Shown here piece after piece: positions 7,172 to 21,251 of a DNA stretch of 64,000 nt. The number at the start of each line of letters is the position of its first letter. The first letter of the stretch is position 1. The notes beneath the pieces are model-generated. The model ran no database searches. It saw nothing but the letters and a program-made list of their open reading frames with translations, and was not told where the DNA came from. The DNA is from Lachnospiraceae bacterium (lineage in GTDB: Bacteria > Bacillota > Clostridia > Lachnospirales > Lachnospiraceae), in the NCBI GenBank assembly GCA_024696945.1, contig JAILGF010000153.1, positions 1 through 64,000 of the forward strand, written 5' to 3'. The position numbers were made by a program, and so were the translations under genes.

Positions 7172-7198
7172 TTAGCACTCTATAAAGTTGAGTGCTAA
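7172..7198 (+). promoter_or_regulatory. CIRCE operator (HrcA-binding site)
   Basis: Perfect TTAGCACTC, 9 bases, GAGTGCTAA. This matches the known CIRCE consensus exactly. HrcA binds it and represses the operon; stress titrates chaperonin away from HrcA and derepresses it. It lies between the promoter and hrcA. Confidence 0.97.
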
Positions 7199-7222
7199 TA
7201 AATGAGACGGAGGGTATTTGAT

Positions 7223-8260
7223 ATGGATCTTGATGACAGAAAACTAAAGATACTTCAAGCAGTTATTAAGAACTATCTGGAAACCGGTGAGCCGGTCGGT
7301 TCGAGAACTATATCAAAATACACCGACCTGAATCTAAGCTCGGCAACCATAAGAAACGAGATGGCGGACCTTGAAGAGCTGGGTTACATTATCCAGCCCC
7401 ATACCTCTGCCGGACGTATTCCTACTGATAAGGGCTACAGACTGTATGTGGATACCTTAATGCAGGAAAAGGTTGACGAAGTAAACAACATGCGTGACGA
7501 CCTTTTGGAAAAGGCTGACAGGATGGAAAACCTCCTGCAGCAGGTTGCAAAGATGCTTGCGGTCAACACCAATTATGCCACTATGGTCACAACGCCCAAA
7601 TACAGAAGCCGCAAGATAAAGTTCATCCAGCTTACGGATGTTGACGAATACCAGGTACTTGCCGTTATCGTACTTGAAGGCAATATAGTAAAGAACAGAA
7701 TGTTCAGATCGGACGTAGCACTGGTAAAGGAAGACGTACTTAAGCTTAATCTTGCACTCAATACCTTCCTTCAGGGACTTGACATAGAAGAGATAAACAT
7801 CGGTCTGGTACAGAAGCTTAAAAGTCAGGTAGGCTCCTATCAGGAACTGGTTTCGGAAATACTTGATGCAATAGCTACCGCGATTCAGGAAGAGGGCGAC
7901 ATCAGGGTTTACACGAGCGGTGCGACAAACATACTGAAATACCCTGAGCTTTCCGATATGAATAAGGCACTCGACATCCTTTCGACCTTGGAGAATAAGG
8001 AAGAACTTACACAGTTTGTTGAAAATGGTGATATACAGCCGGATGAAAAACGCGGCATACAGGTTTATATAGGTGACGAGAATAAGGTTGATTCCATGAA
8101 GGATTGCTCGGTAGTTACCGCTACTTACGAGATAGAGGAAGGCATATACGGCAAGGTCGGGATCATAGGACCCAAGCGTATGGATTATGAAAGAGTTGTA
8201 GGAACCCTTCAGAATATGATGGGACAGCTTGATGACATATTTAAAAACAAGAAGCCTTAG
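7223..8260 (+). CDS. hrcA: Heat-inducible transcription repressor HrcA
   Basis: 345 residues from the ATG at 7223, 9 bases after CGGAGGG. The longer frame opening at 7202 would place the start within 4 bases of the CIRCE arm and leave no ribosome-binding site. The N-terminal winged helix is typical: DRKLKILQAVIKNYLETGEPVGSRTISK and LSSATIRNEMADLEELGYI. The GAF-like centre and C-terminal part (YGKVGIIGPKRMDYERVVGTL) are also family hallmarks. It represses its own operon through the CIRCE site directly upstream. First gene of hrcA-grpE-dnaK. Confidence 0.97.
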   Translation: MDLDDRKLKILQAVIKNYLETGEPVGSRTISKYTDLNLSSATIRNEMADLEELGYIIQPHTSAGRIPTDKGYRLYVDTLMQEKVDEVNNMRDDLLEKADRMENLLQQVAKMLAVNTNYATMVTTPKYRSRKIKFIQLTDVDEYQVLAVIVLEGNIVKNRMFRSDVALVKEDVLKLNLALNTFLQGLDIEEINIGLVQKLKSQVGSYQELVSEILDAIATAIQEEGDIRVYTSGATNILKYPELSDMNKALDILSTLENKEELTQFVENGDIQPDEKRGIQVYIGDENKVDSMKDCSVVTATYEIEEGIYGKVGIIGPKRMDYERVVGTLQNMMGQLDDIFKNKKP

Positions 8261-8298: not shown

Positions 8299-9072
8299 AT
8301 GAGCAAGAAAAATAAAAAGTTTAAAGGAAATAAGGAGCATGAGATGGCTGATTTAAAGGAAAGGCTACTCAAGGAATCCGTAGAAGCCGCTAAGAAAAAA
8401 GCGGCAGAGGAGGCCGAAAAGGAAAAAGCCGGAGAGGCAAGCGCAGGAGACACAGCAGAGAATGAAATAAAGGCTGCCGATACTGCTGAGGCTGCAGAAA
8501 AAGCTGAAGAAACAGTTGAAGCTGCAGAAAAAGTTGAAGGAACCGTTGAGGATGCATTAAACACAGAAGCAGATCAGGAAAGTGAGCTCCCTGCCGATGA
8601 CGGTCCGACAGCAACTTTTGCTAAAGGTGAAGGAGACAAGAAAGACGCTAAGATAGTAGAGCTTAATGACCGACTGATCAGAAACCTCGCAGAGTTCGAC
8701 AATTTCAGAAAGCGTACCGACAAAGAAAAATCCCAGATGTTTGAGATGGGAGCCAAGAGCATTATTGAAAAGATACTTCCCGCAATAGACAGCTTTGAAC
8801 TGGGACTGGCAGCGATGAGCGAAGAGGACAGAGCCTCTGGAGTAGGTCAGGGCATGGAAAAGATATATAAGCAGTTGATGACCATCCTAGAGAATGCGGG
8901 AGTAAAGCAGATAGAGGCATTAGGTAAGGAATTCGATCCGAATCTCCATAATGCTGTAATGCATGAGGAAAATGAGGAGTTCGGTGAAAATACAGTTTCA
9001 CAAGAGTTACAAAAGGGCTATATGTACAATGATTCGGTAATACGTCACAGCATGGTCAAGGTTGCCAACTAG
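8299..9072 (+). CDS. grpE: Nucleotide exchange factor GrpE
   Basis: 257 residues. The C-terminal half holds the family signature: DRLIRNLAEFDNFRKRTDKEK, then EKILPAIDSFELGL and the beta-domain QIEALGKEFDPNLHNAVMHEEN. The first 110 residues are an unusually long, Ala/Glu/Lys-rich, low-complexity tail with repeated AAEKAEE-like blocks. Two in-frame starts both have good sites: ATG 8299 (GGGAGG) and ATG 8344 (AAGGAG, 6 bases upstream), so a slightly shorter form is possible. GrpE drives ADP release from DnaK, encoded next. Confidence 0.96.
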   Translation: MSKKNKKFKGNKEHEMADLKERLLKESVEAAKKKAAEEAEKEKAGEASAGDTAENEIKAADTAEAAEKAEETVEAAEKVEGTVEDALNTEADQESELPADDGPTATFAKGEGDKKDAKIVELNDRLIRNLAEFDNFRKRTDKEKSQMFEMGAKSIIEKILPAIDSFELGLAAMSEEDRASGVGQGMEKIYKQLMTILENAGVKQIEALGKEFDPNLHNAVMHEENEEFGENTVSQELQKGYMYNDSVIRHSMVKVAN

Positions 9073-9096: not shown

Positions 9097-11085
<1,989 letters not shown>

Positions 11086-11119: not shown

Positions 11120-11148
11120 TTGATACAGATTGAGAATATTGTTATAAT
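11120..11148 (+). promoter_or_regulatory. Separate promoter of dnaJ and the GTPase-nuclease gene
   Basis: TTGATA (11120-11125), 17 bases, TATAAT (11143-11148). A hairpin GGCAG, GAAA, CTGCC (11160-11173) lies in the short leader. No CIRCE element is present here, so dnaJ and its partner can be transcribed apart from hrcA-grpE-dnaK. Confidence 0.7.
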
Positions 11149-11208: not shown

Positions 11209-12351
11209 ATGGCAGACAAGAGAGATTATTACGAGGTGCTGGGCGTCAGCAAGGACGCTAGTGCCGATGAAATAAAGAAAGCCTACCGCCAGCTCGGAAA
11301 GAAATATCATCCGGATGTAAACCCGGGCGATAAGGAGGCCGAGGAAAAGTTCAAGGAAGTCGGAGAAGCCTATGCGGTCTTAAGTGATCCTGACAAGCGC
11401 CGTCAGTACGACCAGTACGGTCATGCGGCGTTTGAAAACGGCGGAGCCGGCGGAATGGACTTCAGTTCCATGGACTTCTCAAGCATGTTCGGAGATCTTT
11501 TCGGTGGCTTAGGAGGCATTTTCGGAGATCTTTTCGGCGGAGGAAGCCGTTCCGGCGGCGGAGTCCAGCGCGGAGCCAACACCAGAACGAGAGTCCGCAT
11601 AACCTTTGATGAGGCTATGAAGGGCGTTGACAAGGAAATTGACGTAACATTAAAAGAAAAGTGTGAGACCTGTGACGGTACGGGAGCTAAGCCCGGATCA
11701 AAGGTTGAAACCTGCAGCCAGTGCGGCGGTAAGGGTCAGGTGGCATTTACCCGCCAGTCCTTCTTCGGAATGACACAGAGCATTCAGGCATGTCCTCAGT
11801 GCCGCGGCGCAGGAAAGATAATAAAGGAAAAGTGTTCCGCATGTCTCGGAAACGGATATATTTCCAGAAAGAAGAAGCTTTCGGTTTCGATACCTGCAGG
11901 CATCGATTCAGGCCAGTGCATAAGGCTTGCCGGAAAGGGCGAACCCGGAATCAACGGCGGAGCATACGGCGATCTTTTGGTAGAGGTTGACGTTAGCGAT
12001 CATCCTGTATTCCAGCGTGAGGGAATGAACATTTATTCCGTAGCATACATGAGCTTTGCACAGGCAGCGCTCGGCGGTGAAGTCAGGATCCCCACAATTG
12101 ACGGAGATGTTTTATATGAGGTTAAGGCCGGAACCCAGACCGATACCAGAATAAGACTCCGCGGCAAGGGCGTTCCTTCAATCAGGGATAAGTCATACAG
12201 GGGCGACCATTACGTTAATCTTGTGGTTCAGGTTCCCACAAAGCTTAATTCCGAGCAGAAGGATCTCCTGAAGAAATTTGATGAGGCTTATTCGGGAAAG
12301 AAACCTGAAGACGGCACCGAGAAGAAAAAGAAGGGTTTCTTTAGTAAATGA
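11209..12351 (+). CDS. dnaJ: Molecular chaperone DnaJ (Hsp40)
   Basis: 380 residues, the normal length for a type I DnaJ. J domain with HPD at 34-36, Gly/Phe-rich linker to about 115, a zinc domain of four CxxCxGxG repeats ([32 protein letters not shown], about 152-220) and the C-terminal substrate-binding part. It stimulates DnaK ATPase and delivers substrates. The stop overlaps the start of the next gene by 4 bases (ATGA), indicating translational coupling to the GTPase-nuclease fusion. Confidence 0.97.
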
Positions 12352-15047
12352 AAAGGTTCGTTATAGGGATTCTTGCCCATGTGGATGCCGGAAAGACGAC
12401 TCTTTCCGATACAATCCTGTATTTATGCAAATCTATACGAAGGCCGGGAAGGGTCGATAAAAAAGACTCCTTCCTGGATTCTTATGCCTTAGAAAGAGAA
12501 AGAGGCATCACCATATTTTCAAAACAGGCTGTTTTTGAATACGGTGATGTCTCTTTTACTTTGCTCGATACCCCGGGACACGTTGATTTTTCACCCGAAA
12601 TGGAAAGGACATTGGCGGTTCTTGACGCAGCGGTCCTGGTAATAAGCGGCCCTGAAGGAATCCAGGCACATACGAGAACCCTTTGGAAGCTTCTCAGCAT
12701 TTACGATATTCCGGTTTTCATCTTCGCGAACAAGATGGACAGAAACGTCAGAGGTGCTTCCGACGTAATGGCAGAGCTGAAAGCGGGGCTCAGTTCTTCA
12801 TGCGTTGACATGACGGAGTTCCTAAACGAAGACGCTAAAGCCTCATTAAAAAATTCGGTTTATGAAGAAATATCCCTATGTGATGAAGAAGTTCTTGAGA
12901 ACTTTGTAGAAACGGGTGATGTGAGCGATGAAGAGATTGGCGGGCTTATCACCTCACGAAAGCTTTTTCCGGTAATATTCGGTTCGGCCCTTAAGCAGGA
13001 GGGCGTTATCCAGCTTCTAAATGCAATGAAAAGCTTTCTGCCGGAAATAGAATACGGTGAGATACCTTCCGCACGTGTCATCAAAACAGGAAGAGATCCT
13101 TCGGGAAAGCTTGTAACATATATAAAGGTCACGGGCGGAGAATTTAAAACAAGGGACCAGATAAATTATTCCAAAAACGGTGAGGAATACTCCGAAAAAA
13201 TAACGGAGATAAGAATATATAACGGGGAGAAATTCGAAAATACCGATACTGCAATAAGCGGAATGGTTGTCGGAATTACCGGCATTTCTTTCTTGCAGTC
13301 GGGAGATGTGTTAGGTGATGAGGATCCACTTCCGGAAAAAAAGCTGACACCCGTACTTTCATACAGGATAGCGGAACCGCCCGAAAGGCTCAGAACCCTA
13401 AGACCGGTATTCAAAAAGCTTGAAGAGGAGGAACCTTCGTTAAACGTTCATTGGAATGATGAAACAAAAGAACTTCAGATAAGCATCATGGGTGAGATAC
13501 AGCTTGAGGTGCTTAAATCCAAACTGAAGGACAGATACAACGAGGAAGTAAGCTTCGATAAGGGCAGCATAATCTATAAGGAGACCATAACAGGCCCGGT
13601 GCTCGGAGTGGGACATTACGAGCCTTTAAGGCACTACGCTGAGGTACAGCTGGTTATTGAGCCCGGAGAACCCGGAAAGGGTATAGTGTTTGAATCGGGC
13701 GTATTGCGGGAAGACCTTGAGCTTAACTGGCAGCGTCTTATCATGACTCATATATTTGAAAAAGAGCATTTAGGCTGCCTGATAGGTGCGCCCATAGATG
13801 ATATCCGTATCACGCTTGTAGCCGGAAGGGCACATCAGAAGCATACCGAGGGCGGAGATTTCAGGCAGGCAACCTACAGGGCGTTAAGACAGGGCCTGAT
13901 GAAAGCTGCCGTACAAGGTTACGGCAGGATACTTGAACCCTATTATGATTTTACGCTTGAGCTTCCTAAGGAGTGCACCGGAAGAGCCATGACCGATATT
14001 GACAGGAAATCCGGGAAGATCACGGGACATCAGGAGATAGAAGGAACGGGAATGGTAGTGCTTACAGGTACTGCGCCTGTTTCGGAGCTTTCGGGATACT
14101 CAATGGATGTAACGGCATACACGAAGGGGCTGGGAAACATTTACTGCACCTATGCCGGGTACAGACAATGCCATAATGAGAAGGAGATTATAGAAAAGAA
14201 AGCATATGATGCCGTTTCTGACATGAGAAATCCGTCATACTCGGTATTCTGTGCACACGGTGCGGGATTTGCTGTCGAATGGAACGAGGTGGATTCGTAT
14301 AAGCATATAGATTTAAAGGTTAGCTTCAACGGTACCGGAGGAAAGAGCGGCTTCAGCATTGAAAAAGAAAACGAGGATTTTGCCGAAAAGAAAGAACCCA
14401 CATCTGCAGATCCGGGAGCTTCCATATCGGGCGATGAGATCGATTCGATAATCAATCGTACATATTTCGCAAATAAAAAGCAGGAATACCGTAATCCCTT
14501 CAGAAGAAAAAAGACGGTGCTTACTGCCGTTCCAACCAAGCAAAAGACAGAAATGCCTAAAAAAACGGCCTATCTCCTTGTTGACGGCTATAATATCATA
14601 TTCGCCTGGGATGAACTGAAAACGCTTGCCGATGACAATCTTGACAGTGCACGGGACAGACTGAATGAAATACTTATAAACTACAAGGGAATGCATGATA
14701 CAGAGATCATTGTGGTTTATGATGCATATCGAGTGCAGGGACACCCGACAGAATATCTGAGGCTTGAAAACATAAATGTCGTATTTACGAAAGAAGCGGA
14801 GACCGCGGACAGGTTCATAGAGCGTTTTGCGCATGAAAATGCTTCACGCTTCGATGTTACGGTGGCCACCAGCGATGGGCTGGAACAGATAATCATAAGA
14901 GGACAGGGGGCACGTCTGCTTTCTGCACGGGACTTTAAAGAGGAAGTAGACAGGACCCGGGATAATATAAGAGAAAAGTTACAGAAGGGAAACGATAACT
15001 TCACTCTGAAATCTGCGATGAGCACAAAAATAGACGATTTATTTTAG
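12348..15047 (+). CDS. TetM/EF-G-like translational GTPase fused to a Rae1/YacP NYN nuclease domain
   Basis: 899 residues with two parts. Residues 1 to about 650 are a ribosomal-protection-type GTPase: G1 AHVDAGKT (10-17), RGIT (52-55), DTPGH (74-78), NKMD (128-131), followed by EF-G domains II to V. Plain TetM-type proteins stop near 640 residues. Residues about 738-877 form a NYN/PIN-like domain like Yac[13 protein letters not shown] (D746), VVYDA (D792), ETADRFIE (D821) and TSDGLEQ (D843). YacP is Rae1 in Bacillus subtilis, a ribosome-bound mRNA endonuclease acting in the A site. A low-complexity linker joins them. The fusion suggests a factor that enters stalled ribosomes by GTP hydrolysis and cuts mRNA. 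Translationally coupled to dnaJ. Calling it a tetracycline resistance gene would be unsafe. Confidence 0.85.
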
Positions 15048-15153: not shown

Positions 15154-16221
15154 ATGAAAAAATTAAGTTCCAAACTAATAAAATCAACGGCGATCCTTTG
15201 TATGTCCGCAGTACTGTTTACAGGTTGCGGACCGGCCGAGGAGGATTCACGGAGCATAACCATCGTCAGGGAATCGGTTGAGAATTCATATGAATTTACC
15301 CACCTTGAGAAAAGGGATGTCATCAAGACGGAGTCTGTTTCATGTACATACAGCCAGCTGATGCAGGAAGACCTTGCTTTTCCGGTGAGTGACAAGACGG
15401 TTGCCTATGTATATGTAAATGAGGGCGATGAGGTTAAGGTCGGAGATCTGGTGGCAAAGCTTGACGTTGAATCCCTTGAATCTGACAATGTGCAGATGAG
15501 GGAACAGCTTGAAAGAAACGATCTTCTCATGGCACAGGCCGATGAAATGATAGCCTTCTATGAGAAAAAGATAGAGACGCCCGGTATCAGCCTTTCGTCA
15601 AAGGAAAGTTACCTTTCAAAGCTTCAGAAGCTTCGTGAAAAGAGAAGAACCTACAGCGATGAGAACGATTTCAACAGGATAAAGATATCGGCCAACGAAC
15701 AGCAGATAGAAGCCGGTTCTCTTTATGCCGGAATGGACGGTAACATTTCATTTATCAAGGATAACCTTGAAGGAAACACTTCCAGAGCAGGTGAGACTGT
15801 TATTACGATCCTCAACGCCAGTGTTTGCGGCTTCCAGGCCATGGACAGAAAAGCGGTTGAATATGTAAAATTAGGTGACAGGGTTCAGATAGTCACCAGC
15901 CTTGTCGGAGATGTATATGATGCTACGGTTACATCTATCGATGTTGATAAATCAAAGATCGTTTTCGAACTTGACCAGCCTGATTATTCGATAACAGTAG
16001 GAACCAGGGGAACCGTTAACATAGTACAGGGAGAAGCGGACGGAGTTCTGTCCCTTCCGAAATCCTGTGTCTTTGAGGGTGATGATTTCTGGTTTACCTA
16101 CGTCTTAAACGGAAGCGTAAAGGAAATGAGAAAGATCGATATCGGACTTATCGGAAACGACTATGTAGAAGTAACCGGAGGAATCAGCGCGGACGATGTG
16201 GTTATCCTTCGTAAAAGCTGA
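15154..16221 (+). CDS. Lipoprotein adaptor (membrane-fusion protein), HlyD/MacA-like, 1 of 3
   Basis: 355 residues. Lipoprotein signal MKKLSSKLIKSTAILCMSAV with lipobox LFTGC (C25). The mature part has a lipoyl-like half motif (VAYVYVNEGDEVKVGDLVAKLDVES), a helical hairpin rich in Glu/Lys, and a beta-barrel closing with DVVILRKS. This is the plan of periplasmic or extracellular adaptors of tripartite ABC exporters; in a Gram-positive it would sit outside the membrane, docked on the FtsX permease encoded three genes later. First gene of an apparent six-gene operon. Substrate unknown: antimicrobial peptide, lipid or signal peptide export are family options. Confidence 0.8.
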   Translation: MKKLSSKLIKSTAILCMSAVLFTGCGPAEEDSRSITIVRESVENSYEFTHLEKRDVIKTESVSCTYSQLMQEDLAFPVSDKTVAYVYVNEGDEVKVGDLVAKLDVESLESDNVQMREQLERNDLLMAQADEMIAFYEKKIETPGISLSSKESYLSKLQKLREKRRTYSDENDFNRIKISANEQQIEAGSLYAGMDGNISFIKDNLEGNTSRAGETVITILNASVCGFQAMDRKAVEYVKLGDRVQIVTSLVGDVYDATVTSIDVDKSKIVFELDQPDYSITVGTRGTVNIVQGEADGVLSLPKSCVFEGDDFWFTYVLNGSVKEMRKIDIGLIGNDYVEVTGGISADDVVILRKS

Positions 16222-16244
16222 TAAAAGGTAAAGAGGTGCGTTAC

Positions 16245-17294
16245 ATGCTTAAAAAGTTTTTGCTTTTATTCATTCTTACAGGCTGTCTGGTGCTCAGTGC
16301 CTGCAGCGGTTCCGAAGATACGGAAGAGGACGAGATTGAACTTTTGGAACCTATGAATGCCAAAATAGAGACAACCTACGTGACAAAGATGGACATAAGC
16401 CAGGTAGAGCTTCATGACGGAGCAGTCATTCCTGCAATAGAAGAGTTCTCATTTGATGAAAACGGATATCTTTACGGTATATTCGTAAATCCCGGTGATA
16501 AGGTATATAAGGGTGACGTACTTGCCGGCCTTATGGGAAAGGATTACAGGACCATCACTGACTTGGAGGATGAGATAAAGGAACTCGAAAAACAGAAGGA
16601 TAAGGACTATGCCGATTATGAAAAAGAACTTGAGATAGCAAAACTCAACGGCGGCGATACTTCCGAAAAAGAGCTCGAGATAAAGCAGAAAAAGGAACTT
16701 GCTGAATTTGACCTTCAGCAGAAGAAGGACAGACTGGCAGAACTCAAGGAAACCGATATAGGATATATTTATATAACGGCTCCTTATGACAGTGTTGTTG
16801 CTGCCGTATCCTCAGCAAGAGCAAACAGCTATGTATCAAAGGGAACCTCCGTGGTTGCATTGGAAACCGGTGAGGACCCCATGATAACATGTGATTATAT
16901 GACGGAAACCAATGTAAATAAGTTCTATCAATGTTATGCCCTTGTCCGTGGACAGAGAATGGAGCTTGAATATGTTCCGTATACAAAGAATGAGCTTAAG
17001 GTTATCGTAAATAACGGAGTTTCACCTGTTTCAAGGTTTAAGCTTAAGGATATCGGTGATAAAGAGTTTTATGTAGGTGATTATGCAAGCGTCATAGTCG
17101 TAAAGAATTTCAGGGCAGATGTGCTTGCAATCCCCCAAAATGCCGTATATTCCGATTCTAACGGAGAATTTGTTTACGAGATAAAGGACGGCGAAAGAAT
17201 CAGAAAATCGGTTGTTTTAGGACTTTCCGACAACGCTAACGTCGAGGTGGTAGAAGGTCTTGAGGAAGGAGCGAGAATCTATGTTAAGAGCTGA
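16245..17294 (+). CDS. Lipoprotein adaptor (membrane-fusion protein), 2 of 3
   Basis: 349 residues from ATG 16245, 6 bases after AAAGAGGTG; the GTG at 16236 lies inside that site. Lipobox LSAC with C20 (an earlier LTGC at C14 is also possible). Adaptor plan as in the previous gene: lipoyl-like YLYGIFVNPGDKVYKGDVLAGL, a coiled coil (about 105-165, very rich in Glu, Lys and Asp), a second lipoyl half near YITAPYDSVV, and a beta-barrel. Divergent from its neighbours in sequence, so not a recent duplication. Overlaps the next gene by 14 bases. Confidence 0.78.
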   Translation: MLKKFLLLFILTGCLVLSACSGSEDTEEDEIELLEPMNAKIETTYVTKMDISQVELHDGAVIPAIEEFSFDENGYLYGIFVNPGDKVYKGDVLAGLMGKDYRTITDLEDEIKELEKQKDKDYADYEKELEIAKLNGGDTSEKELEIKQKKELAEFDLQQKKDRLAELKETDIGYIYITAPYDSVVAAVSSARANSYVSKGTSVVALETGEDPMITCDYMTETNVNKFYQCYALVRGQRMELEYVPYTKNELKVIVNNGVSPVSRFKLKDIGDKEFYVGDYASVIVVKNFRADVLAIPQNAVYSDSNGEFVYEIKDGERIRKSVVLGLSDNANVEVVEGLEEGARIYVKS

Positions 17295-18411
17295 TAGGAG
17301 ATCGGGCTTTTGCAAAAAGCTCCTGTGCCTTACGCTTGTTCTTATATTGGCGATCATTCCCACTACGGGAGGTTCGGCTGCAGAGGATGATGTACTTTAT
17401 TTCGGTGCATTGGACGAGAGCATAGCGCAGAACGTTAAAACTGCAACTGTAGAAAAGGGTGTATTCTTTGTAAACGGTGCTATTCCCGCAACTCTTGAAT
17501 TTATGAGCAATCAGTGGGTATTTAATGATATCCGTGAAGGTACCGTTCATTTTCAGGAATTTCTTGTAAGCCCCGGAGATGTTGTTAAAAAGGGAGATCC
17601 TTTGGTAAGGATCAGCGTAACGGTCGATGAGATCGAAAAGGAAGAGGTTGAGCTTAACCTGGAAGCAGCTAAAAAGAACCTTGAAGAATATGTTGCCGAT
17701 ACCACACTGCTTCTCGATCAGTATAAGAAGGCATCTCAAACAGGATCGGAACGTGACAGAAAGCTGACATCACTTTCATATGAGAGACTTTTGGATACGT
17801 TCAGAACCGAAAAGGAAAAGCGTGAGAACCGTATAGATGAATATACCTTAAGACTTACGGAAATCGAAGGTCTTGAAGGAAGAGAGTATATCTATGCTCC
17901 CGTTGACGGAATTATCGGACAGTATATGAACAGGTTCAGGACCAATGAAGTTTTAGGTTACTGGCCCGCCTTATGTACAATAAACGATCCCACTAATGTA
18001 AGGATCGTTGTTGAGGGCGGCTCGGACGTTCTCCGTTACAATATGCCGGTCAGGATCATACAGTCAAACGGAAACAAGAACGTTGAGCTTACCGGTAGGG
18101 TTATAACCTTGAAGAGTGCGGCCAATTCGGTAAACCTTATGGCTCAGAATGATGTGATCGAGGTTTACGGCGATGCTTCGGCTTTCAATCCCGGCCGTGA
18201 GGTCAGTGTGCGTTTCGATAAGATATATGTCGAGGATGCGCTTATGGTTCCTAAAACAGCAATAAAATCCGATAAAAACGGCAGTTACGTGAATGTATAT
18301 GTGAACGGTTTTTCGAGCAAACGCTATGTTGTTATCGGAGGAGCCGATTCCATGCGCAACTGGATAGTATCCGGTGTTAATGAAGGCGATATAGTTATTC
18401 TCGATCAATAA
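17281..18411 (+). CDS. Secreted adaptor (membrane-fusion protein), 3 of 3
   Basis: 376 residues from ATG 17281, 9 bases after AAGGAG. N-terminal signal sequence with hydrophobic core LLCLTLVLILAIIP and an A-A-E type cleavage region, with no lipobox cysteine, unlike adaptors 1 and 2. Later: FQEFLVSPGDVVKKGDPLVRI (lipoyl-like), a helical hairpin, YIYAPVDGIIG (second lipoyl half) and a barrel ending GDIVILDQ. The start overlaps the end of adaptor 2, indicating tight coupling. Three unlike adaptors for a single permease is unusual; they may assemble as a hetero-oligomer. Confidence 0.75.
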   Translation: MLRADRRSGFCKKLLCLTLVLILAIIPTTGGSAAEDDVLYFGALDESIAQNVKTATVEKGVFFVNGAIPATLEFMSNQWVFNDIREGTVHFQEFLVSPGDVVKKGDPLVRISVTVDEIEKEEVELNLEAAKKNLEEYVADTTLLLDQYKKASQTGSERDRKLTSLSYERLLDTFRTEKEKRENRIDEYTLRLTEIEGLEGREYIYAPVDGIIGQYMNRFRTNEVLGYWPALCTINDPTNVRIVVEGGSDVLRYNMPVRIIQSNGNKNVELTGRVITLKSAANSVNLMAQNDVIEVYGDASAFNPGREVSVRFDKIYVEDALMVPKTAIKSDKNGSYVNVYVNGFSSKRYVVIGGADSMRNWIVSGVNEGDIVILDQ

Positions 18412-18431
18412 AAGGGCAAGGTACAAAAATA

Positions 18432-21251
18432 ATGTTTCACTTAATGTTGCAGAAAATCCTGCATAAGAAATGGATGGCCGTCAGCCTTCTTATCGGTAAT
18501 ATCCTGCTGATAGCCATTGCGGTAAGCCATCCTATGTATCAGGCAGCTTCCCGGAACAGGATGCTTACGGATGAATTTACAAACTACATGAAGGATAACA
18601 ATGCTTATCCCATGTTAATAGATGTAGAAGGCCTTATCAGAAAGCATGCGGGCAAAAGCGATACCGAGCGTATCCGTAATTTTGCCAATACTGTTGCAGA
18701 GCAGTTCGGTATCGGGGATGTACTTAAGGTCTGCGTGAGAAATCTCGTGGCAAGTGCCGGTACTCCCACCTCCCTCTATGACAGGGCAAGCTCCGAGATA
18801 AAGCTCATGATCGGCAGCATGTCCGATTTCGATCAACATACAGAGATAATTTCCGGAAGGATGTACTCCGAATCACTTTCCGAAGACGGTTATCTTGAAG
18901 CGGTTGTAAGTCAGAGCGCGATGGTCGATTACAGCCTTCTCGTAGGTGAGGAGATTACTTTTAAATCCTTGAAGTATGCCGAGAAGGAAATAGTTAAGGT
19001 AAGGATCGTCGGTGTTTATACAAACTCCGATGATAATGATAATTATTGGGTAAAATCACCGGATTATTACAATGCTCATCTTATCATCTCTCCCAAGGTG
19101 CTTGAAGAAGGCTTTATGGCCAACAATACCATAAAGTACAACGTAAACGAGCATTGGTACACATTGCTTGATTATACACAGCTTGAGCCCCAGCAGATAG
19201 ACAACGTGATCGCAGTGACCGATAAAGCACTTGAAGAGAACAACGGTGTTTATTGCAATATGGCTGAGCCCGACTATATCGAGCTTCTGAAGGACTATGC
19301 AATAAAGGAAAAGCAGATTTCCGTAACGCTTGCAATACTTCAGGTTCCGGTTATTGTTCTGTTGTGTGCGTTCCTGTTCATGATCTCCAGACAGATGCTT
19401 GAAATGGAAGAGAACGAGATTGCCATCCTTAAATCAAGAGGTGCGGGACGTCTTCAGATCATATGGCTTTATTTCCTTCAGTCGATGTTCTTAAGCCTTG
19501 TCAGCTTCATTGTGGGACTTCCGCTTGGAAAACTTATATGTAAGATATTGGGTGCCTCAAGTGCATTCCTGGAATTCGGTTCAAGAAGAAGCCTTAAGGT
19601 TTCTTATTCAACGGACGTTCTTATATATGGCGGAATAGCAGTCGTTGTATCCATGATAATGACGCTGCTTCCCGTATTTAAGCGTTCGACCGCATCGATC
19701 GTTTCCGTTAAGCGTAAGCGTTCAAGACAGCAGAAGCCCCTGTGGCAGAAGCTTTTCCTTGACGTGATCATGCTTGGCGTGGCTATTTACGGTTATTATA
19801 CATTTAAATCACGTGAGGATGAGCTTCTTATAAAGGTTATCAGCGGTGAGTCCCTTGACCCCCTGATCTTCTTAAGCTCTTCACTGTTTATTCTCGGTGC
19901 AGGTCTTTTCTCTCTGAGAATACACTCACTGCTTGTAAATCTGATATTCAGACTTGGAAAACGCGGCTGGAAGCCCGCAAGCTATACATCATTCCTACAG
20001 CTGATACGTACCGGCAGCAAACAGGCATTTATTATGGTATTCCTTGTGCTTACCGTTGCATTCGGTATGTTTAATACCACAATTGCAAGGACCATCCTTG
20101 CAAATGCTGAAAAGAACAATGATTACAATATCGGCGCGGATGTAGTTTTAAGGGAATTCTGGAGGGACAGCAGAGTATATGCCTCCCATGATCCTTCACA
20201 GGAAACCGAGGTATTCTACATTGAGCCCGATTCCGGAAAATATAACGATATTCCCGGTTTAAAGAGCATGGCCAAGGTTTACAGGTCTGAAAATACAATA
20301 GTAAAGACTGATAAAAAAGAGCAGCCCGTAACACTTTTCGGAATCAATACAAAGGATTTTGGCGAGACCACAAAGCTTGATAAAAATCTTCTTCCCTTTA
20401 AGTACAGGGAGTATCTGAATGTTCTTTCAAAGAATTCGGATGCCGTTCTTGTATCGATCAACTTTAGGGACAAGCTCGGAGTCAAGATCGGTGACCAGAT
20501 TAGCTACAGCGTTACGGATGATCTGTTAAGCGGAAGCGGAACCGGTATTGTATACGGATTCTTTGATTACTGGCCCGGTTTCCAGAAGACCAAGGTTGTC
20601 GTTGCAGCTGACGGAACCTCAAAGAATGAAGAGCAGTACATGGTAGTTGCACATCTTTCGGCTGTTCAGGAAAAGGTCGGAGTATTCCCTTACGAGCTCT
20701 GGCTGAACATGGACGGAAATACCGAGGGTGTATATGATTTCATTAAGACCAATGAGATACAGCTTACCAAATTTGTGGATGCGGTTGAAAGCAAGGAAGC
20801 GATAAGCCGTGAGGCACTCTTCCAGGGCACCAACGGAATCCTTACAATGAGCTTTATAACAATACTGCTCATCTGCGGTATCGGTTATCTGATCTACTGG
20901 ACTCTGTCGATACGTTCAAGAGAGCTTCTCTTTGGTATTTTCAGAGCTATGGGTATGGGAAAGAACGAAGTTATCCATATGCTTATCAACGAGCAGGTAT
21001 TGACCGGCGTAGTTGCCATTGTATTCGGTCTGGTAATAGGCTGGATCTCTTCAAGGCTGTTTGTGCCCATTATCCAGATAGCATATTCGGCTACGGACAG
21101 ATCGCTTCCTTTGGAACTTATCACAAGGAATTCAGATATGGCAAGGCTTCTGATCATAATCGGCCTTGTATTTGTGGCATGTCTTGCAGTTCTTATCAGA
21201 CAGGTTTACAGCATGAAGATTTCACAGGCTTTGAAACTTGGTGAGGATTAA
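18432..21251 (+). CDS. FtsX-family ABC transporter permease
   Basis: 939 residues with about ten membrane segments: one near the N-terminus, a large outside domain, a group near 295-425, further segments near 440-500 and 530-560, a second outside domain, and three closing segments. Two FtsX units (around ILKSRGAGRLQIIWLYFLQSMFL and LFGIFRAMGMGKNEVIHMLINEQ) place it in the large double-domain MacB/LolC-like class. These do not translocate through a channel but use mechanotransmission on outside partners, which fits with three adaptor genes upstream. ATPases are encoded next. Confidence 0.85.
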   Translation: MFHLMLQKILHKKWMAVSLLIGNILLIAIAVSHPMYQAASRNRMLTDEFTNYMKDNNAYPMLIDVEGLIRKHAGKSDTERIRNFANTVAEQFGIGDVLKVCVRNLVASAGTPTSLYDRASSEIKLMIGSMSDFDQHTEIISGRMYSESLSEDGYLEAVVSQSAMVDYSLLVGEEITFKSLKYAEKEIVKVRIVGVYTNSDDNDNYWVKSPDYYNAHLIISPKVLEEGFMANNTIKYNVNEHWYTLLDYTQLEPQQIDNVIAVTDKALEENNGVYCNMAEPDYIELLKDYAIKEKQISVTLAILQVPVIVLLCAFLFMISRQMLEMEENEIAILKSRGAGRLQIIWLYFLQSMFLSLVSFIVGLPLGKLICKILGASSAFLEFGSRRSLKVSYSTDVLIYGGIAVVVSMIMTLLPVFKRSTASIVSVKRKRSRQQKPLWQKLFLDVIMLGVAIYGYYTFKSREDELLIKVISGESLDPLIFLSSSLFILGAGLFSLRIHSLLVNLIFRLGKRGWKPASYTSFLQLIRTGSKQAFIMVFLVLTVAFGMFNTTIARTILANAEKNNDYNIGADVVLREFWRDSRVYASHDPSQETEVFYIEPDSGKYNDIPGLKSMAKVYRSENTIVKTDKKEQPVTLFGINTKDFGETTKLDKNLLPFKYREYLNVLSKNSDAVLVSINFRDKLGVKIGDQISYSVTDDLLSGSGTGIVYGFFDYWPGFQKTKVVVAADGTSKNEEQYMVVAHLSAVQEKVGVFPYELWLNMDGNTEGVYDFIKTNEIQLTKFVDAVESKEAISREALFQGTNGILTMSFITILLICGIGYLIYWTLSIRSRELLFGIFRAMGMGKNEVIHMLINEQVLTGVVAIVFGLVIGWISSRLFVPIIQIAYSATDRSLPLELITRNSDMARLLIIIGLVFVACLAVLIRQVYSMKISQALKLGED

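Follow-up and report, generated by a model that had tools for sequence, protein, structure and literature searches.

The question raised by this locus is what a bacterium does with one protein that joins a translational GTPase to an RNA-cutting domain. The gene lies in a 64,000-nt stretch of DNA, here called the window (contig JAILGF010000153.1 of assembly GCA_024696945.1, Lachnospiraceae bacterium, positions 1 to 64,000 of the forward strand), to which all coordinates refer. A sequence-only reading had described the gene as a fusion of a TetM-like ribosomal GTPase with the nuclease Rae1/YacP, starting inside the dnaJ stop codon, serving stalled ribosomes in a way linked to protein folding, and without any known functional description. 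The analysis below supports its central idea, that of an A-site nuclease attached to a factor that enters the A site, as an interpretation of sequence comparisons. We propose, giving it an even chance, that the protein may act as a Rae1 with a built-in ribosome-targeting module, that is, a GTP-dependent A-site factor that would cut mRNA in stalled ribosomes.

The open reading frame (ORF) listing shows no internal stop between 12348 and 15047, and the ATG of the fusion gene shares four nucleotides with the TGA of dnaJ (ATGA), as had been claimed. All Pfam matches exceed their gathering cut-offs: GTP_EFTU at residues 5–232 (E-value 3e-50), EF-G_D2 at 241–322, EFG_III at 346–403, EFG_IV at 407–520, EFG_C at 527–612 and NYN_YacP at 743–890 (E-value 2e-49, 168.2 bits against a gathering score of 24.6). 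EF-G/Tet-type domains I–V therefore fill residues 5–612 and are followed by a conserved tail, a basic linker and the NYN nuclease. With this five-domain set and intact G motifs, the protein belongs to the EF2-family translational GTPases. In PDB, the sequences closest to residues 1–608 are those of TetO and TetM, and the one closest to the C-terminal part is YacP (5MQ8/5MQ9, from B. subtilis, E-value 1e-22). The two identities given in the sequence-only reading were thus borne out.

The residues expected of both activities are kept. Among 59 distinct fused proteins, the P-loop and DTPGH are present in all and [NT]KxD in 58; in these motif counts the duplicate pairs L088/L223 (fused) and L116/L117 (unfused) were counted once. 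D746, D792, D821 and D843, whose conservation had been proposed as a check on the nuclease, align with Asp in YacP. The first three are present in all 68 fused NYN domains and D843 in 67; the sequence of the sole exception (L106) breaks off at a contig end. Each of 26 stand-alone NYN domains has the full set of four. These residue counts cover mostly the best scorers with the hidden Markov model plus six weak scorers (L102–L107), identical sequences having been removed and L052, whose 271-aa frame continues past the end of its contig, entered as fused. The mean frequency of the majority residue over 58 distinct fused proteins was 0.76 in domain IV, 0.60–0.67 in the NYN domain (0.67) and the other domains, and 0.30 in the linker. 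Domain IV is the part of EF-G and TetM that enters the A site. The linker holds a conserved islet (E697 in 55, I701 in 53 and T705 in 47 of the 58 proteins), and the segment behind it has a positive net charge in 57 of 58. This E...I...T islet (14430–14474), standing before the basic stretch, could be a docking motif.

Three samples, of 140 genomes evenly drawn from the family, 126 evenly drawn from the order and 149 from the phylum, were searched with NYN and GTPase profiles. NYN_YacP was found in 126 of the 140 Lachnospiraceae genomes, and in 113 of these it lay in a frame of at least 690 aa, a GTPase frame of matching length in the same genome being compared by eye. The remainder had a free NYN of 174–184 aa (eight genomes) or a short or split one (five: G468, G446, G423, G494 and G364). 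The order sample contained NYN in 103 of 126 genomes, 39 fused, 63 free (frames of 170–272 aa) and one ambiguous (G039). In the phylum sample, 86 of 149 genomes matched at an E-value of 0.001 or less, with 10 fused, including the window's own genome, and 75 free; one of the 86 (G541) was below the cut-off. The fused genomes of five other families in this sample (f27, f30, f34, f81 and f93) had one NYN each. In a further sample from the genus, all 24 genomes matched, and both parts stood in one frame in 23, the 24th being cut by a contig end, which rules out chance or a frameshift artefact. The finding of such a frame in many further families excludes an assembly accident as well.

An intact fused NYN and an intact free one were never seen side by side in the NYN-positive genomes of the family (126), order (103) and phylum (86) samples; where the fusion is present, it therefore normally provides the cell with its only Rae1. 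Second NYN matches in three family genomes (G420, G454 and G496) and three order genomes (G021, G050 and G114) were either pieces of 34–139 aa or a single frame in two parts. The piece in G420 (C121:2-400), 139 aa long and starting at the contig end, is the only possible two-copy case in the family sample.

To place the GTPase half, we called a protein an ortholog when it scored at least 600 bits with the GTPase query A1, a line that we set within gaps in the scores (680 to 492 in the family sample, with split-gene pieces below; 653 to 533 in the order; 908 to 531 in the phylum). Below the line, G571 and G527 (531 and 526 bits, frames of 659–683 aa, free NYN) and G446 (481 bits) could hold distant unfused relatives. 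Complete unfused orthologs have frames of about 650–675 aa, are 39–46% identical and occur in genomes with a free NYN. An unfused ortholog, L148, was also found in a Coriobacteriaceae metagenome-assembled genome (MAG) with no NYN match; it has no usual start codon before its P-loop. An unfused relative in an Eggerthellaceae MAG (L150) looks broken.

A GTPase tree was built from 59 sequences, of which 38 were fused, 14 unfused and 7 similar to the ribosomal protection proteins (RPP) of tetracycline resistance. It set the RPP-like proteins apart with support of 100, and all fused proteins together with the Coriobacteriaceae protein formed one group with support of 99. This was a quick search with support from the Shimodaira–Hasegawa-like approximate likelihood ratio test (SH-aLRT) only, leaving out duplicates (L109–L113, L116, L143), the contig-cut L106, partial loci below L069 and proteins under 600 aa (L126, L128, L150). 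In the NYN tree (72 of 94 rows, 22 having been dropped by thinning), a single branch parts fused from free domains, with weak support of 76. Taken together, the two trees are compatible with a single fusion event followed by spread, the NYN part having been lost at least once.

On the proposed mechanism, the GTPase, which belongs to a different clade from the tetracycline-resistance proteins, would bind ribosomes whose A site is empty or abnormally occupied. Domain IV would reach the decoding centre, and GTP hydrolysis would let the factor leave or rearrange the complex. A tether of about 86 residues connects the NYN/Rae1 nuclease to domain V and the tail; the nuclease would then cut the A-site mRNA, after which ribosome rescue could take over the truncated complex and the mRNA could be degraded. 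The fusion would thereby replace a free nuclease by one brought to the ribosome, and perhaps licensed on it, by the GTPase. In this genus, where most members sampled have the gene behind dnaJ, the protein is probably made together with the heat-shock chaperones, at times when translation can be expected to stall or to yield misfolding chains. Rae1 is described as an A-site endoribonuclease in the available passages of PMC6613710 and PMC12320835, and those of PMC10632193 name candidate mRNA targets. The anatomy, the intact GTPase and nuclease residues, the replacement pattern and the operon position are observed; from them we infer ribosome binding, A-site cutting, the order of these two steps, heat-shock control and the hand-over to rescue. 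The support that we count comprises the domain set, G motifs, catalytic Asp residues, domain IV conservation, single NYN, trees, Rae1 literature and CIRCE operator, and it suggests such an activity. A wider claim seems possible but on balance doubtful: that the protein represents a separate class of ribosome quality control, with GTP-driven A-site entry and exit and its own mRNA nuclease, which would be the only Rae1 of most Lachnospiraceae, would have spread to other Bacillota displacing the free nuclease, and would be wired into the HrcA heat-shock operon in one genus.

Several results weigh against the proposal of a GTPase-targeted Rae1. An AlphaFold2 model of the whole fusion from a five-row alignment reached a mean predicted local distance difference test score (pLDDT) of 54.6 and a predicted template modelling score (pTM) of 0.40, too poor for arguments about fold or docking. 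A larger order sample showed two NYN matches in at least 9 of 392 genomes, three of which were resolved. An NYN match was missing from 14 of the 140 genomes of the family sample and from 23 of the 126 of the order sample, and the function is therefore dispensable. GTPase orthologs without an NYN match occur in the Coriobacteriaceae MAG G655 and in G012 (77% complete), so the GTPase can also have a separate function. In the order sample, the tie between unfused ortholog and free NYN was not significant (12/63 vs 1/22, p 0.17; the former count includes the partial gene of G024, and the latter leaves out G084); an association in hand-picked genomes (15/27 vs 0/22) had disappeared in this evenly drawn sample. 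Finally, dnaJ lay upstream in none of 83 fused loci outside the genus (0/26 and 0/57). The upstream view at these loci varied, from about 1.3 kb up, and 3 of 60 loci were too short and were dropped. The gene left out, in G084, is a GTPase ortholog cut by a contig end in a genome with no NYN match.

The nuclease could instead act on rRNA or tRNA, with the GTPase carrying it to the ribosome for maturation, or for the inactivation or turnover of defective ribosomes. The genomic setting of the free gene lends this some weight: neighbour clustering found a run of cysS, a small ORF and rlmB, an rRNA methylase gene, upstream in 9 of 12 loci. At one of them (L091), SigH, RlmB and CysS exceeded their NCBIfam cut-offs and the small ORF, presumably MrnC, had no match at 1e-50. 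None of 27 fused loci of 8–14 kb had the cysS-rlmB-sigH block beside the fused gene. Their most frequent neighbour cluster (c7) occurs at 8 of the 27, in varying place and strand. The early prediction for NYN_YacP was also rRNA/tRNA maturation, as cited in the part of PMC4342817 available, and mutations of B. subtilis yacO (an rlmB homolog) and rae1 appeared to affect one pathway, according to passages of PMC6613710. However, the tested B. subtilis member needs translation to destabilise mRNAs, and it has the domain and the four acidic residues in common with the fusion. We therefore consider rRNA or tRNA an improbable target.

Similarly unlikely, in our judgement, is that the GTPase is the main actor, as a special factor of elongation, back-translocation or recycling, with the NYN domain a passenger that binds RNA or the ribosome and does little regulated cutting. 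Unfused orthologs, most with the same domain-IV motif, do occur in several families and in Actinomycetota, and domain IV is better conserved than the NYN domain. Nevertheless, the acidic residues are invariant across diverse fusions and no intact free NYN was seen beside a fusion, which points to a nuclease in use.

There is little chance that the protein confers tetracycline-type resistance or tolerance, with the GTPase removing the drug from the A site and the RNase adding a second action. This follows a proposal already in print: the sections available of Atkinson 2015 (PMC4342817) report a Tet-NYN fusion in ten clostridial species and propose antibiotic resistance through RNase activity. 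TetO and TetM are indeed the nearest solved relatives, and NCBI labels some orthologs as TetM/TetW/TetO/TetS family. However, "TetM-like" did not stand as a description. The window protein scored 391.8 bits against a cut-off of 775 in the NCBI tet_protect model, one other fused relative 427.9 and three unfused orthologs 377.5 to 421.1, whereas a control RPP (L134) from the fusion-bearing genome G350 scored 850.5. Among the RPP-like proteins, whose identity to the GTPase half is 30–34%, 6 of 7 have the SPVST sequence in loop III of domain IV; it is absent from all 59 distinct fused proteins and from the 73 fused and unfused ones taken together. Of the distinct proteins, 55 of 59 fused and 11 of 14 unfused ones have KHTxGGDF at this loop, as against none of the 7 RPP-like ones, and the tail pattern SVFC..G, close variants allowed, is found in 59/59 fused, 13/14 unfused and 0/7 RPP-like proteins. 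The separate clade and loop III rule out a paralogous TetM. Both G350 and G417 carry RPP-like genes alongside the fusion, and the presence of the fusion in most genera sampled from the family does not resemble that of an acquired resistance gene.

Clade members in NZ_CP143948.1 (L235, 4968–7769) and on Ligilactobacillus salivarius plasmids are labelled TetM/TetW/TetO/TetS family tetracycline resistance; other public records of the clade read "translation factor GTPase family protein". From the comparisons above, the former labels are probably false resistance calls. Because five scored members (the window's, one fused and three unfused) miss the cut-off and the clade lacks the RPP loop, resistance-protein names on fused and unfused members can inflate resistance-gene counts in gut data. 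The L. salivarius plasmids carry unfused orthologs, one plasmid being typed mobilizable. A mobile resistance gene was rejected, as the two plasmid-collection records covering at least 80% of the query are typed non-mobilizable.

It is also a remote prospect that the fusion works together with DnaJ in a protein-folding stress response, for instance where misfolding chains have stalled ribosomes. Speaking for it are, in the window, the four-nucleotide overlap and an operon that runs from a CIRCE operator (controlling inverted repeat of chaperone expression) through hrcA, grpE, dnaK and dnaJ to the fusion as its last gene (Table 1). In the genus sample, dnaJ immediately precedes the fusion gene, in the same orientation, in 17 of 23 informative genomes; 12 of these show an overlap of 1–4 nt, and the linked copies other than the window's are 55–75% identical to the window protein. 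However, six of the 23 have no dnaJ within 1–1.5 kb (one further contig starts inside the gene), and the linkage was absent from all the loci outside the genus; the in-genus locus among the 27 fused loci compared (L088) also has no dnaJ upstream. The survey suggested earlier thus found a widespread fusion with a dnaJ linkage confined to the genus, and of the claimed link to folding the overlap is real, while a general link is not supported and a heat-shock link holds for this genus only, as sampled. The linkage is a genus trait kept over considerable divergence, and it looks like a local regulatory placement outside the general mechanism. The promoter-like site between dnaK and dnaJ means that dnaJ and the fusion may also be expressed without heat shock.

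A known anti-phage system is ruled out, as no PADLOC-DB family matched the fusion protein at an E-value of 0.001.

Table 1. Positions of the fusion gene, its parts and the preceding heat-shock genes in the window
Feature	Position	Strand	Basis or remark
Fusion gene, EF-G/Tet-type GTPase with NYN_YacP (Rae1) nuclease	12348..15047	+	899 aa, ATG start
GTPase domain I, residues 5–232, with NKMD	12360..13043	+	Pfam and motif counts
Domain IV, residues 407–520	13566..13907	+	best-conserved domain of the fusion family (mean majority-residue frequency 0.76)
Domain IV loop III, residues 496–505, where RPP have SPVST	13833..13862	+	alignment
EF-G domain V, residues 527–612	13926..14183	+	Pfam
Conserved tail behind domain V, residues 613–656	14184..14315	+	common to unfused orthologs, unmatched in 7 RPP-like proteins
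Linker, residues 657–742, weakly conserved, basic past residue 709	14316..14573	+	conservation and charge
Conserved linker islet, residues 695–709, around E697, I701, T705	14430..14474	+	conservation
NYN_YacP (Rae1-like) nuclease domain, residues 743–890, with D746, D792, D821, D843	14574..15017	+	Pfam and alignment
CIRCE operator (putative HrcA binding site)	7172..7198	+	0 mismatches to consensus; 0.03 expected by chance
hrcA, heat-shock repressor	7202..8260	+	PF01628, E-value 1.5e-65
grpE	8299..9072	+	PF01025, E-value 7e-46
dnaK, true start may lie downstream	9124..11085	+	PF00012, E-value 8e-243
Promoter-like site between dnaK and dnaJ, TTGATA-17-TATAAT, TG before second hexamer	11120..11148	+	consensus match; 9 sites in region vs 6.3 expected
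dnaJ	11209..12351	+	Pfam DnaJ, DnaJ_CXXCXGXG, DnaJ_C

Besides dnaJ upstream, the window's fusion gene has an ORF without a Pfam match downstream. The region 15154–21251 contains three such ORFs, which on visual inspection resemble adaptors or lipoproteins, and a 939-aa protein matching FtsX permease; it is likely an export system unrelated to the fusion. A single-protein search of genome contigs gave five related loci. In a viral contig collection, the NYN queries gave no loci and GTPase query A1 gave 49, most of them RPP or EF-G relatives judging by identity; the two read in detail, L238 (at a contig edge) and L270, are both unfused orthologs. Two unannotated "Bacteriophage sp." records from human faeces, MT835514.1 and MT835563.1, hold near-full-length relatives of the fusion and could be bacterial contigs.

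If the proposal of a GTPase-targeted Rae1 is true, most Lachnospiraceae, a large gut family, would run mRNA surveillance through a GTPase-tethered nuclease, for which we found no studied counterpart, and the fusion would give a handle on how Rae1 reaches and chooses stalled ribosomes. If the protein is indeed a separate class, free Rae1 too could have a GTPase partner where both are separate.

The fusion architecture is real, conserved and already noted in print. The claim that it had no functional description held in that our literature search, which did not extend to the original Rae1 papers, found no functional test of the fusion, but the fusion itself had been published with another proposal. 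Among the matches listed, titles and the beginnings of abstracts gave no paper announcing it besides PMC4342817, and the passages available of a tetracycline resistance gene screen (PMC7725328) contain nothing on it. The window protein fits the fusion of Atkinson 2015 (PMC4342817), a Tet-type GTPase with a YacP-like NYN domain in Clostridiales; the available parts of that paper do not connect it with Rae1, with dnaJ or with a replacement of the free nuclease. TetM and TetO (PDB 3j9y, 4v6v) have domains I–V and the G motifs in common with the fusion, whereas the fusion clade is set apart by a loop that is mostly KHTxGGDF instead of SPVST, by an extra conserved tail, by a score far under the cut-off and by its place in the tree. 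SmrB, a collision nuclease, also cuts mRNA on the ribosome upstream of rescue, and neither it nor the RelE-kind nucleases are known to carry a GTPase. The RelE-kind A-site nucleases, named in passages of PMC12320835, resemble the proposed activity in cutting mRNA on the ribosome upstream of rescue. The closest likeness of the nuclease half is to Rae1/YacP of B. subtilis (5MQ8, 5MQ9), which belongs to NYN_YacP by sequence and has the same four acidic residues. That nuclease stands alone, as a 181-residue chain in the PDB entries, and its free relatives in the sampled genomes are 170–176 aa long and mostly follow rlmB, whereas the window nuclease is fused behind a GTPase and the fused genes stand at unrelated loci.

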